Below, one piece after another: positions 11,242 through 60,902 of a stretch of DNA of 64,000 nucleotides. Where the stretch lies: positions 1 through 64,000 of the forward strand of contig JABLTG010000009.1 in the NCBI GenBank assembly GCA_016618085.1. Reading direction: 5' to 3'. Position numbers and translations under genes: made by a program. Below the pieces are notes generated by a model, which was given only the letters and a program-made list of their open reading frames with translations, searched no databases and was not told the DNA's origin. Source of the stretch: Neovahlkampfia damariscottae. Its lineage: Eukaryota; Heterolobosea; Selenaionea; Neovahlkampfiida; Neovahlkampfiidae. The first letter of the stretch is position 1. The number at the start of each line of letters is the position of its first letter.

Positions 11242-12778
11242 TTAATTCACTTCCATACTTTGTTTGCTAGATTTTTTTTCCATAAAATAATCTAAAATTA
11301 AAAATCCACATAAAGTGACGAAACCAATGACACCAAAACCAGCCACAAATGCATAGAATAATCTCCAACTTTGCTCAATAATTTTACCAGCAAACATACC
11401 AAATAACATGGATCCTAAATAACTACCACCATCTGTAACTCCAATTAAAAATGCACTATAAGGTCCACCAAATGAAATTGCTATTGAAAAAAATGTTAAT
11501 TTTTGTTTGTTTTTTCATACCAAACACTCCTTGACTTTTGTTAAATCGATGTTATTTATTTTTTTTTTTCTTACCAAAGATAATAAGGAGGTGCTAAAAC
11601 AAAGAAACTGAAACCAAATATCGTTAATGCAAATGGAAATGGTATTTCAACACCAAAAACAGCAACCGCAATCATACAACCTGTAGACAAAACTGAACCG
11701 CAAAGAAGGTATATTATTTTGGTAATTGGATAATTAATTAATAAATCATAGATGAAACCACCAACAAAAACACCAATAACAGCACTTAATGAACAAACTG
11801 ATGAATATAAAGCAGCGTCACCTGAATCTAATTTATAAACTTCTGCTAAATATAAAGGAACGTATTCTTCATTAAAACTAAAAAGTGCAGTCATTGAAGT
11901 TTGTGCTAATAACATTAAATAAACTCTTGGACTGATAGCAAAGTATAAAATAGCAGCAAATATTCCTTTGTCATTTAAATCATGAATTTTTTCTTCTTCG
12001 TCTTCAAGCACCTCTTCTTTTGTATCTACATAAAGATTAACATCACTAGGTGAATCTTTTAATGGATATGCTGTAATTGCTACAATTATAACAATCAAAA
12101 TTGCGCAAATCCAAAATGAGTGTCTCCATGAAAGTGTAGCGAAACTTTTTAAAAGTAAACCAAGTCCAATTCTTCCTAAGAAATCACCTAAAGATCCACA
12201 TGATGATAATAAACCATAAACTCTTCCAATAACTTTCTTTGGAAACCAATTACCAACAATTTTTGTCATGGCCATCCAAGAACAAGATTGAGCAAATTTC
12301 ATTAAAGACCAAAAGAATACCATTAATCCAAAATTATATGAAAAACCAAAACCAACACTAGCACCAACAATTATCATTTGTGTTGAAAGCATAGCCCATT
12401 TACCACCAACAACATCTGTATAATAACCTAATATTAATTTTCCAAGTAAATAAATTCCAATTCCTGCTGAAATAATGTAACCTTTTTAACATTGTATTTA
12501 AATTTTTTTTTTAACACACCTGAACGTTCCTTGTTGAAAACTATTTTTGGATCATTTATGAGTAAATCAAATGAAACTGATAACAGAGCCCATGAACAAT
12601 AAACTGAAGTGACTCCAAGTGCTACACAAATAAAAGTAACAATTTGCCAAAAATAGAGTTTGAATGAGGATTGATTCTTTGACAAACTTTCCTCTTCATA
12701 AACAGGTGTATGATCGATGCTTTTTACTTCTGGTAACAAATTTGTATCCTCTGTGTTATTTAAACCATCTCCATCCAT
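11242..12778 (-). CDS. MFS transporter, sugar-phosphate/glycerol-3-phosphate type
   Basis: Three exons on the minus strand: 12778 to about 12519, about 12480 to 11575, and about 11480 to 11242, giving about 465 residues with roughly 12 hydrophobic segments. The signature QSCSWMAMTKIVGNWFPKK followed by GRVYGLLSSCGSLGDFLGR is the GlpT/UhpT/SLC37 (organophosphate:phosphate antiporter) pattern between helices 4 and 5. A long acidic central loop (EEVLEDEEEKIHDLNDK) separates the halves. The C-terminal exon reads GGPYSAFLIGVTDGGSY and ends in a short charged tail. The substrate is probably a phosphate ester such as glycerol-3-phosphate or a sugar phosphate; which membrane it sits in cannot be told. 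Confidence 0.8.
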
Positions 12779-24476: not shown

Positions 24477-26840
24477 ATGAGAAAATACTGTTTTGCAAAA
24501 CTTATCAAAAATGAAGAAGCGTATGAACTACTCGCTCAATACCTGGAATCCAATTTCTGCTTGGAATTGTTGAACTTTGTGGAGCATGTGAATGATTTCA
24601 ATCTTGTTGTTTCAAGTGGAGCCAAAAAAACAAGAGCCATTGCTATTTATGAAACATTCATTAAATCAAACAGCGATCAGGAAGTGAATATTGATCATAA
24701 AGTGCGAAAAATCACAGAAGATTTGTACAAAGACGCAATGAATGAAAAAATAGCTTTTGACAAAGTTTATCGTGTGGCTTATAAATCAATCTGTTTAGAT
24801 TTGTTACAAACTTTCACAGCTTTTGTTCTTTCACCTGCAGCTGTTGAATTCTTCAACAAAAAAGAAAAAGAACTTTCACCAACAAAATTTGCTTTTGAAT
24901 TTTGTAACACAGAAGAAGAAGAAATAGAATTCATCAAAACTATGGACACATATAAAGAAACAAAAGATGATTTTGTCATTGACGTTGACTATGTATTCCA
25001 ACAACACAAATCAGATGACTTATTAACAGTAAATGTCGACATCACAAAAGAGGAATTGGAAGATGTTTTTTCAACTCACCCAGGTAGCTTATCACAAAAA
25101 CCATTTTCAACAAAACTATTATTCAACAAAATGATTGTTGATTTAATGAAAACATTTAGTGGCGTACAACTTTCTGAAAAACCAAAAATGAAAATTGAAA
25201 AAAAGAAAACAGGTTTATTTTCAAAAAAACCAAAAGAAGAAGAAAAAAAAGAAGAAAAAAGACAAAAAGTATTCGAAAAAACAAACTTCAACAAATGGAT
25301 TGCAAATTATTACAACATTGAAATTACTCACAAAGCTATTCCAAAAATCATGAACTTACTCATTAAGTATAAAATAATTGAAGAATACAAGGATGAAAAA
25401 TCAAACAAATATCCAGATTATTACACTTTTATTCACAAAAAAAAACTTGTGATTGTTGGAAATGGATTTGCAGGTAATAACTTGGGAAAGGAGTTAAGGG
25501 ATGACTTTGACATCATCATCATTGATAAAAAGAACAAATTCAAGTTTAACATTGGATTTTATAAATTATTCTCAGATCCAACTTATATTGATAAAATTGA
25601 GTTGGAAAATGAAACAGTTACAAAAGGATGTACTTTGATTAAAGCAACAGTCAAAGCAATCTCACCATCTTGCGTTTATTTATGTGACAAAGTTGTCCCT
25701 TTTGATTATTTATTTGTTTGTACTGGAAGTAGTTACAGTATTCCTTTCAAAATTAATTTGGAACCTTTTGCTCCAAGATTCAATACAAGTTTGTTTGATT
25801 TTAATGAAGAAGTGCAACAAAAGCAAATTAAAGTTATTACACCTTATGATCCATCACTTGCTATTTCACATTTTGCTGATATCAGAGACGCTGAACATGT
25901 TATCATTGCCGGAACAGGTCCAGTTGGAATTGAAATCATTGGTGAACTTGCATATAAATATCCAAACAAAAGAATCACTGCTATCACTCAAAGTGGTACT
26001 ATTATGGATAGACAATCATCAAAATGTCATCAAGCAGCAATGAAGATTATCAAAAAGTTCAAAAATCTTGAAGTCATTTTCAACGCAAGCATAACAAGAA
26101 TTGAAAAGACTTCTGTTTTTTATAGAAAAGTTACGATTGAAGAAAAGGTAAAAGGAGTTGAAATTGAACTAAAAGCTGATGTTGCAATTTTGTGCTTGGG
26201 ACTTCGTCCAAATACTCGTGTTTTCAGAACTTTCATGTCAGATTCTTTGGGACCTACAGGTTTTGTTAAAGTAAATGATTTTTTTGAAGTACAATATGGA
26301 AGTCAATATTTGGGTGATAAAAAATTGATGGAAATGCTCACAAAAGAAACAAAAAAGCAACAAGAAGAATATCTCAAACAATGTGAAAAAACTTCTGATT
26401 CAATGGAGAAAGAGGAATTACCTGAAGAAGAACCTGAAAACACAAACATGGAAGAAACTATAGGAAATATATTTTACAAGTTATTAGCACCAGATCCAGA
26501 AAATATTTATGGAAAAGAAGAAATGGAAAATGTCTATTCGAATATTTTCGCACTAGGTGATATTATTGATTCTCCTGATGAAAAATTAGGATATTTCGCA
26601 AGAACTCATTCCACTGCTGTGAAAGAAACAATTTTATTGAAAGAATTTTCTTTGACAAAAGAAGATTATTTGAAAAATCGTCAGAGATATCCAAAAGGAA
26701 AATTAGTTGTTCAAATTATTAACATTGGAAATGAAGGTTTAGTGATGAAAGGAAAAAATTTGTATTCACATGGTGGATTTGCTAAAAGTTTAAAAAATGC
26801 ATTTGAATATGTATTTGTTGGAATGATGCTACCTTCATAG
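24477..26840 (+). CDS. RGS-DEP-FSP1-like oxidoreductase fusion
   Basis: A single-exon 787-residue protein. Residues about 1-135 are an RGS domain (LLAQYLESNFCLELLNFVEH, RAIAIYETFIKS, FDKVYRVAYKSICLDLLQTF), normally a GTPase activator for G-alpha. Residues about 195-325 look like a DEP domain broken by a Lys/Glu-rich loop (FNKWIANYYNIE, AIPKIMNLLIKYKIIEEY, YPDYYTFIHKK). From about 322 on it is a two-dinucleotide-domain flavoprotein: FAD motif KLVIVGNGFAGNNLGKEL, YLFVCTGSSYSIPF, NAD motif VIIAGTGPVGIEIIGELAY, ILCLGLRPNTRVF and IFALGDIIDSPDEK. It is closest in plan to AIFM2/FSP1 (quinone reductase) and NDH-2-like enzymes. An insert of about 75 charged residues precedes the last FAD motif. It ends close to VFVGMMLPS with no membrane anchor. 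Confidence 0.85.
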   Translation: MRKYCFAKLIKNEEAYELLAQYLESNFCLELLNFVEHVNDFNLVVSSGAKKTRAIAIYETFIKSNSDQEVNIDHKVRKITEDLYKDAMNEKIAFDKVYRVAYKSICLDLLQTFTAFVLSPAAVEFFNKKEKELSPTKFAFEFCNTEEEEIEFIKTMDTYKETKDDFVIDVDYVFQQHKSDDLLTVNVDITKEELEDVFSTHPGSLSQKPFSTKLLFNKMIVDLMKTFSGVQLSEKPKMKIEKKKTGLFSKKPKEEEKKEEKRQKVFEKTNFNKWIANYYNIEITHKAIPKIMNLLIKYKIIEEYKDEKSNKYPDYYTFIHKKKLVIVGNGFAGNNLGKELRDDFDIIIIDKKNKFKFNIGFYKLFSDPTYIDKIELENETVTKGCTLIKATVKAISPSCVYLCDKVVPFDYLFVCTGSSYSIPFKINLEPFAPRFNTSLFDFNEEVQQKQIKVITPYDPSLAISHFADIRDAEHVIIAGTGPVGIEIIGELAYKYPNKRITAITQSGTIMDRQSSKCHQAAMKIIKKFKNLEVIFNASITRIEKTSVFYRKVTIEEKVKGVEIELKADVAILCLGLRPNTRVFRTFMSDSLGPTGFVKVNDFFEVQYGSQYLGDKKLMEMLTKETKKQQEEYLKQCEKTSDSMEKEELPEEEPENTNMEETIGNIFYKLLAPDPENIYGKEEMENVYSNIFALGDIIDSPDEKLGYFARTHSTAVKETILLKEFSLTKEDYLKNRQRYPKGKLVVQIINIGNEGLVMKGKNLYSHGGFAKSLKNAFEYVFVGMMLPS

Positions 26841-58909: not shown

Positions 58910-59260
58910 TTTTGAATTGGAAATGATTGGACAAAAATAAAACTACAATTCTCCTTGTATTTGAGTTTATTTTAGATTTTTTTGCACCCTTATGAAACGA
59001 TGTTTCTGCTCTAAAAATATCTCCTATAAATTCTTTTCATATTTTTTCGGTTTCATTTGTTTTCTTGGTATTACCAGAGCCATTTTATTGATCAAATTTT
59101 ATGAAGAAAATTTTTGACAATTTTTTGACAACATTTTCATCCTTCGGAGTCTTTTTCTGGGCTGCTGTTAAAATTTAGCTTTTGGCTTGACGAAGTGTGA
59201 AAAATCGACCAACAAATTTCCAATGCAGAAAAAATGTTTTGATTGGCTAACATTTCTTTA
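58910..59260. other. Intergenic, gene-poor
   Basis: AT-rich, with a few ATTGG pentamers (near 58925 and 59240) and no recognised gene. The second lies just before the relic described next. Confidence 0.35.
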
Positions 59261-60340
59261 TGTCAACAGAAAAAAAAGAAAGGTTTTATTGGGATAGAAT
59301 TCCACCAGAAGTAGATTTCTTGTTGAAAAATTGGACAAAAAAGTCTAACAGTTAAAATTTTCAAAAAAATTATTAGTTTCTATTTAGAAAGAGTTCAATA
59401 GTTAATTAGAAATTCAAAATCAAACAATTATAAATTTAAAAACTCAAATTCAAACTCTTGAAGAAAAAATCTATTTCTAAATTAAAAAACACATATTAAA
59501 AGAAATTGAAAATGATAAAAAAATACTAGCTGAAAGATCAGTGAGAGATTTTTTATTTGATGTTTTTAGAAAAATTACAAAAATTAATTATTCAAAATTT
59601 GTTTCAAAAAAAGACAATAATATTATTAATGTAAATGAAATGCATATTTAATCAACAAATCTTTTTAAAGTTATTTATTAGTTTATTCATTCACTATCAA
59701 AATAAAAAATCTTAATTCAAAAAGCTTTCATTTCAATATGGTTAGTATTTTCAATAATTGTTGATTAAAACTTAACTAAAAATATTCCCCAAAAAATGAT
59801 AAATATTATAATAAAAAGTGCTGGTGTTGATGTTTCTTTATTACCAATTTTAAAGTATTTTCAAATTATTCTTTGTGATTACACTATTCATGAAACAATT
59901 TGGAGTTTGTATAATGGATTTTTAAAAGAAATAAATGTTTAAATTACAAAAAATCCAAATAATGTTGTTGTAAAAACTCTTAATAACATTGACATTTATG
60001 ATAAAGCTAAAATTCAACAATATCTTAATCAATCAGCAATGTGGCATGGAATGTAAATGATTTTCAAACTATTTGTAAATGAGATAAAAACAAATGTTTT
60101 TTCATTAAAGTGCCTAAAATATTTGAATCATTTGAAATTTCAAATTAAAACACAAATTTCTAACAAAATTCAAACTTCAATTCCTCACCAAAATTCAATT
60201 TATAAAAATTCACTTCCAAAAGACATGTTTTTTTCTTTTAATTGCTATTGAAAATATTGTTTCAAAAAAAGTGTTTAAATCAACTTTTATTAAATCACAA
60301 AAACATTATCCATCAAAGTTTATTATTGTTGATTAACGGA
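59261..60340 (+). pseudogene. Decayed or alternatively coded protein gene, unknown family
   Basis: Codon structure remains obvious over more than 800 bases. Protein-like stretches include NLKTQIQTLEEKIYF (coiled coil), ILAERSVRDFLFDVFRKI, FVSKKDNNIINVNEM, SAGVDVSLLPILKYFQ, DYTIHETIWSLYNGFLK and NNIDIYDKAKIQQYL. One frame carries this text from about 59.4 to 60.25 kb. It is crossed by about seven stops, all TAA or TAG with no TGA, and read as glutamine the coiled coil would be uninterrupted. A host-like start (ATTGG then ATG, MSTEKKERFYWDRIPPEVDF) lies at 59261. Near the 3' end the protein-like text changes frame (IAIENIVSKKVFKSTFIKSQ). It may be a dying host gene, or DNA from a lineage reading TAR as Gln. 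The family is not recognised; no reverse transcriptase, capsid or transposase motif is seen. Confidence 0.45.
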
Positions 60341-60902
60341 ATTGTGTGTTGGCTTGTTTATTAAAGTGAGACAAAAATAGTTTCTAAAGAAATGTGATTG
60401 GACAATTTTTCTTAATCAATTTAAAACTATATCAAACCACTTTTGAAAGTAAAATAAACACATCAGATTATATTTAGAAAAATACAAAAATAGAATATGT
60501 TGACCAATCAAAATCCTTTAAGAAGAATTTGATGGGTGACTTTAAATTAGTCACCTGATTCACCAATCAAACCAAAAGGCTTAAAATAGTACTTTTCTTG
60601 CAGATCCTGTGGTATGTTCAAAATCCAATATCTGAGGTGTAAGCACTAAAGAGGGAAAGAAACATGTGATGAGAAAAGAAGATCTCTTAGATTTCTAAAA
60701 AAAGGAAATAACAAATGCATTCGGAAAGGGATCACATAACAAAAACCGAAGACAAAAGAAACAAAATAAGGTTATTTCAACAATCAAAAGTTTCAGAAAA
60801 ATATGTACAACAAAGACCAACAATCTATATCACGTAGAAACTGTTTCAAAAAAACAAAAACCTGATACGTTTGATATTCAAAAAATTCTTCAATAAATTA
60901 TC
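60341..60902. other. Intergenic with palindrome, possible untranslated RNA
   Basis: About 560 bases with no coding frame. A perfect hairpin GGTGACT-TTAAATT-AGTCACC lies at 60535-60555, flanked by CCAATC on both sides. The stretch 60590-60770 is less AT-rich than typical intergenic DNA here. I could not match it to U snRNA, SRP RNA, RNase P or snoRNA landmarks. Confidence 0.3.

Follow-up and report, generated by a model that had tools for sequence, protein, structure and literature searches.

The DNA analysed here (the window, 64,000 nucleotides) is an AT-rich, gene-dense nuclear region of about 27% GC. A gene model trained on the window alone, using codon usage, splice sites and intron length, produced 39 genes and 61 introns. 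The introns were mostly 25-59 nt long (median ~36); their donors resembled GTAAG and their acceptors were rich in T. The products encoded in the window included an Arf GTPase with a nearly full-length Pfam match, RGS-domain proteins, a fatty acid desaturase, a PPDK_N protein and an inositol phosphatase-like protein with a DEP domain, together with a gene which, by eye, was taken to be SRP54-like. In addition, a single frame of 787 aa at 24477-26840 contained both an RGS domain (E 2.3e-12) and a pyridine nucleotide-disulphide oxidoreductase (E 9.3e-20). The 32 confident genes ended in TAA (26), TGA (4) or TAG (2), and the TAA of the Arf gene coincided with the end of its Pfam profile. No in-frame stop was found in the ~14,900 codons of the window genes other than the relic described below. 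The use of all three stops at gene ends and none within genes showed that the host code is standard, as the sequence-only reading had stated for these genes. The sole tRNA seen in the window was a tRNA-Glu and no suppressor tRNA was seen there.

A gap between intact genes, with host genes on both sides, contained the coding-like relic (Table 1). The coding signal of frame 0 began at ~59325 and ran to 60230. Within this frame, TAA codons were located at 59346, 59403, 59478, 59649, 59703, 59766, 59940 and 60054 and TAG codons at 59385 and 59679, while the earliest TGA was at 60249. The total of ten TAA or TAG codons (TAR) was reduced to eight when the candidate intron was taken out. The initial description of a coding-like frame crossed by TAR and free of TGA was thus upheld; it had given a figure of about seven stops. 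The predicted product of ~350 aa has an N-terminal heptad region and is helical in the remainder. The heptad pattern at 59325-59477 in frame 0 had P = 0.001, and the initial part by itself was not significant.

Table 1. Features of the relic locus (positions in the window).
Feature	Positions	Strand	Description
TGATTGG promoter-like motif (CCAAT-box-like)	59240..59246	+	13 nt upstream of relic ATG 59260
Relic N-terminal part, frame 1: MSTEKKERFYWDRIPPEVDFLLKNWTKKSNS	59260..59352	+	6.0 bits, 28 codons, stop-free
Relic body, frame 0	59340..60230	+	Coiled-coil-like start, then mostly helical; 8 TAA and 2 TAG, 0 TGA
Candidate 41-nt GT-AG intron	59351..59391	+	Removal would bring frames 1 and 0 into one reading frame
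T7 homopolymer	60228..60234	+	Point where the frame-1 coding signal takes over from that of frame 0
Relic C-terminal part, frame 1: ...AIENIVSKKVFKSTFIKSQKHYPSKFIIVD then TAA 60334	60232..60336	+	7.3 bits, 34 open codons

Scored with host codon usage over 59343-60230, frame 0 reached 46.8 bits with 10 stops in 296 codons. Over the same interval, the other two frames of the plus strand had 28 and 32 stops (-31.5 and -14.4 bits), and the three of the minus strand had 33, 28 and 24 stops (-52.7, 19.3 and -13.7 bits). When TAA and TAG were set neutral, the model called a gene from ATG 59260 to TGA 60249 with 33.6 bits. The maximum among 600 simulated sequences of matched composition was 8.4 bits under an order-2 null and 20.5 bits under an order-3 null. 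The frame at 59340-60230 on the plus strand is clearly coding-like, well beyond chance. That AT-rich intergenic DNA came to look coding-like in one frame by accident is very unlikely, since the whole-gene score exceeds both simulated maxima and the asymmetry among the frames is strong, although TGA-free, TAR-laden frames are common and a cruder local codon test, which gave no credit for absent stops, produced only P ~0.01. The other gaps of the window held no comparable multi-stop frame except where a gene on the opposite strand explained it. A similar TAR-laden run at 11327-12291 was explained as such an antisense shadow. For the relic, the shadow of a minus-strand gene was ruled out because the minus frames were all closed. 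Tiny introns placed over every stop were also rejected, as the host splice-site and length models gave no positive-scoring standard-code gene and several TAR codons of the relic, e.g. that at 59478, were without a GT close upstream.

The start of the relic carried host features. TGATTGG in either orientation was present at most 60 nt upstream of 11 of the 33 confident host starts compared with 3.5% of random positions. The window contained 25 copies of TTGATTGG/CCAATCAA against 6.6 expected (e.g. at 59240, 24451, 19207 and 7033), frequently 10-60 nt upstream of start codons and in both orientations, a placement which suggests that it is probably a core promoter element of a protist with short 5' leaders. 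A mobile element with terminal inverted repeats was rejected because the repeat pair at 59237-59253 and 60497-60513 was this common TGATTGG motif of the host. The candidate intron scored 11.8 in the host model, which exceeded 15% of the 61 host introns; only 1.5% of random GT-AG pairs attained such a score. Alternatively, the first frame change may have arisen by insertion or deletion in the A5/A6 runs (59326-59342), a reading favoured by the continuation of the frame-0 heptad register across 59351-59391. The second frame change, at the T7 run, is likely an indel. The frame-1 tail at 60232-60333 continued beyond TGA 60249 with P = 0.0036 in simulation, uncorrected for the choice of point, and this coding-like tail argues for a true indel under any code.

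A live host gene in which TAA and TAG are read through, edited or recoded would agree with the intact ATG, the promoter motif and the sound codon structure. However, it was judged the least probable of the explanations, given the complete lack of in-frame stops in the other genes and of a suppressor tRNA in the window, and the second exception that the C-terminal frame change would require.

The window contained over a dozen TGA-free runs of at least 300 codons with at least 9 TAR. When host genes were decayed neutrally in simulation until they carried 10 stops, the mean number of TGA was ~2, and 9-14% of trials had none. The decayed genes retained 0.135-0.19 bits per codon, compared with 0.158 observed in the relic, and Gln was the source of just 7-22% of their TAR codons. 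With such runs common and a P of 0.09-0.14 under decay, the missing TGA hardly carries any weight as evidence, in agreement with the caveat that had been attached to it at the outset. The relic has the in-frame TAA and TAG without TGA of a TAR=Gln gene (NCBI table 6), yet this pattern is frequent by chance here. Overall, when a genome is near 25% GC, finding stops of the TAA and TAG types alone is poor evidence that a variant code is in use: roughly a tenth of randomly decayed genes would be free of TGA, and frames with many TAR but no TGA often arise by chance.

The relic contains 10 TAR and 16 CAR codons, so that TAR would make up 38% of its Gln codons (10/26) under a TAR=Gln reading, or 36% (8/22) with the intron removed. 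According to values copied or calculated from the tables printed in PMC10942620 and PMC1805757, the TAR share is 74% in Tetrahymena, 63% in Paramecium, 90% in Pseudocohnilembus and 58-60% in Oxytricha/Stylonychia (PMC10942620), and 62% in weakly expressed genes of Spironucleus (PMC1805757). The share in the relic has P ~0.02 if the true share is 60% and 0.001 if it is 70%. TAR is therefore not the major or dominant Gln codon that it is in AT-rich genomes with this code (10:16 versus 58-90%). Some MMETSP (transcriptome-based) ciliates have a TAR share of just 27-36%, and for that reason the 38% of the relic lowers the probability of the TAR=Gln reading but does not abolish it. CAA and CAG together amounted to 4.5% of relic codons, a value inside the host range (median 3.3%, 95th percentile 6.0%), and an ordinary supply of Gln therefore does not require the TAR codons. 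With TAR counted as Gln, the Gln content was 7.3%, close to the 9.6% to which Gln sums in the codon table of Tetrahymena (PMC10942620). High Gln content was dropped as an argument against TAR=Gln because ciliates with this code are Gln-rich too.

The relic resembles the nuclear genes of ciliates, hexamitids and some oxymonads that are written in a TAR=Gln code (NCBI table 6) in its in-frame TAA and TAG without TGA and in the raised Gln once TAR is read as Gln. It differs from them in that its host genome is standard-code, that CAA exceeds TAA by ~2:1 where AT-rich members show the opposite and that its coding signal appears to extend past the TGA in another frame. The origin of the relic in a TAR=Gln lineage (ciliate, hexamitid or oxymonad), with the gene now dead DNA in a standard-code genome, is improbable. 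Eight TAR without TGA, a reading from ATG 59260 to TGA 60249 that is free of frameshifts once the 41-nt intron is removed, and the Tetrahymena-like Gln content are consistent with it, and the strongest argument for foreign DNA is the GC of the relic, which is lower than that of the host. Against it stand the TAR share, the host promoter motif and host-like candidate intron, the coding-like tail and the abundance of comparable TGA-free frames in the window. It is marginally less probable that the interval from ATG 59260 to TGA 60249, interrupted by one intron of 41 nt, is a complete gene in the TAR=Gln code which was transferred into this standard-code protist and stands behind a host promoter motif. 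If true, a TAR=Gln gene in a standard-code genome would be a gene transfer across a genetic-code barrier. The proposal of a TAR=Gln donor, for which a codon-usage comparison had been suggested, is opposed by the TAR:CAR ratio, the host features and the C-terminal frame change. No good evidence for a different genetic code was found in the relic, which is most likely an ordinary pseudogene.

The GC content of the relic was 20.3%, which made it the AT-richest kilobase of the window, and host intergenic DNA had 27.6%. Part of a host gene of 2589 aa was equally AT-rich. Mis-assembly, in which DNA of a second organism would have been incorporated into the contig, could explain this low GC and the lack of a relic homologue within the window. 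However, the host-type promoter motif and candidate intron lie at the relic's own start, the flanks are host genes on both sides and no repeat that could drive a chimera was found at the edges, and mis-assembly is accordingly very improbable. The dinucleotide indices of the relic (TpA/ApT 0.72 and (CpA+TpG)/(ApC+GpT) 1.59) were both ordinary for the window and no CpA depletion was found in it. The relic shares many TAA and TAG stops with the RIP-mutated repeats of fungi but has neither their CpA/TpG depletion nor their TpA excess, and RIP or CpA-to-TpA decay was rejected on the ordinary indices. The suggestion that decay proceeded mainly by C-to-T change was not sustained by these results, and unbiased decay reproduced the pattern.

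No relatives of the relic were found in the window, Pfam, PHROGs, the PDB, IMG/VR, GTDB genomes, phages or plasmids. Weak Pfam matches were under the cut-offs (Mrx7 E 0.12, PapB 0.008 and PND 0.015), and the AlphaFold2 model of the relic protein, made without an alignment, was uninformative with a mean pLDDT of 41. With its coding-like frame, several stops and frameshifts, and its place in a gap between intact genes, the relic resembles pseudogenes known from protists and yeasts, both unitary ones and those derived from duplicated genes; the Hemiascomycete set (PMC2876123) is an example. In contrast to those pseudogenes, no intact cognate was found for it in the window or the databases searched, so that its assignment to this class does not rest on the usual similarity to an intact CDS. 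The disabling mutations in its coding-like frame comprised 10 or 8 TAR and one or two frame changes.

The relic is best explained, with a probability of about three in four, as a nuclear pseudogene of the host lineage whose product matched no family in the databases searched. We infer both the loss of function and a native rather than acquired origin. Under this explanation, a nuclear host gene, its ATG closely preceded by the usual promoter motif and its coding sequence probably split by a single short intron of host type, would have lost its function. Nonsense substitutions (~8-10) would then have accumulated in it, along with one or two indels in A/T homopolymers. The restriction of its stops to TAA and TAG would result from the AT-rich DNA. 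TAA would predominate because it is one step from the commonest codons of AT-rich genomes (AAA, GAA, TTA, CAA and TAT), and TGA would be reachable from far rarer codons. Frame 0 had just 10 stops where each of the others had 24-33, and the decay simulation matched both the residual codon signal and the absence of TGA. A decaying host gene, one of the origins first proposed, is also favoured by the host promoter motif, by a candidate intron and a codon signal that both fit the host, and by a shift of the reading frame that coincides with a homopolymer at least once. Three results weigh against the pseudogene. The one or two frame changes are few next to 8-10 nonsense changes, and the simulated 0.12-0.20 substitutions per site might lead one to expect a larger number of indels, although this depends on how often they arise in the host. 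Decay toward the intergenic GC would not reduce GC to the value observed, and an intact paralogue or homologue was absent from the window and the databases searched. As a pseudogene, the relic matters little outside annotation.

No RNA family reached threshold in the relic region. Downstream of the relic, three TGATTGG motifs were located within 60395-60580 (60395 on the plus strand, 60510 and 60569 on the minus strand) with no called gene adjoining. From 60600, where no Rfam match was obtained, the sequence was GC-richer (0.33) and may contain an unannotated RNA gene.
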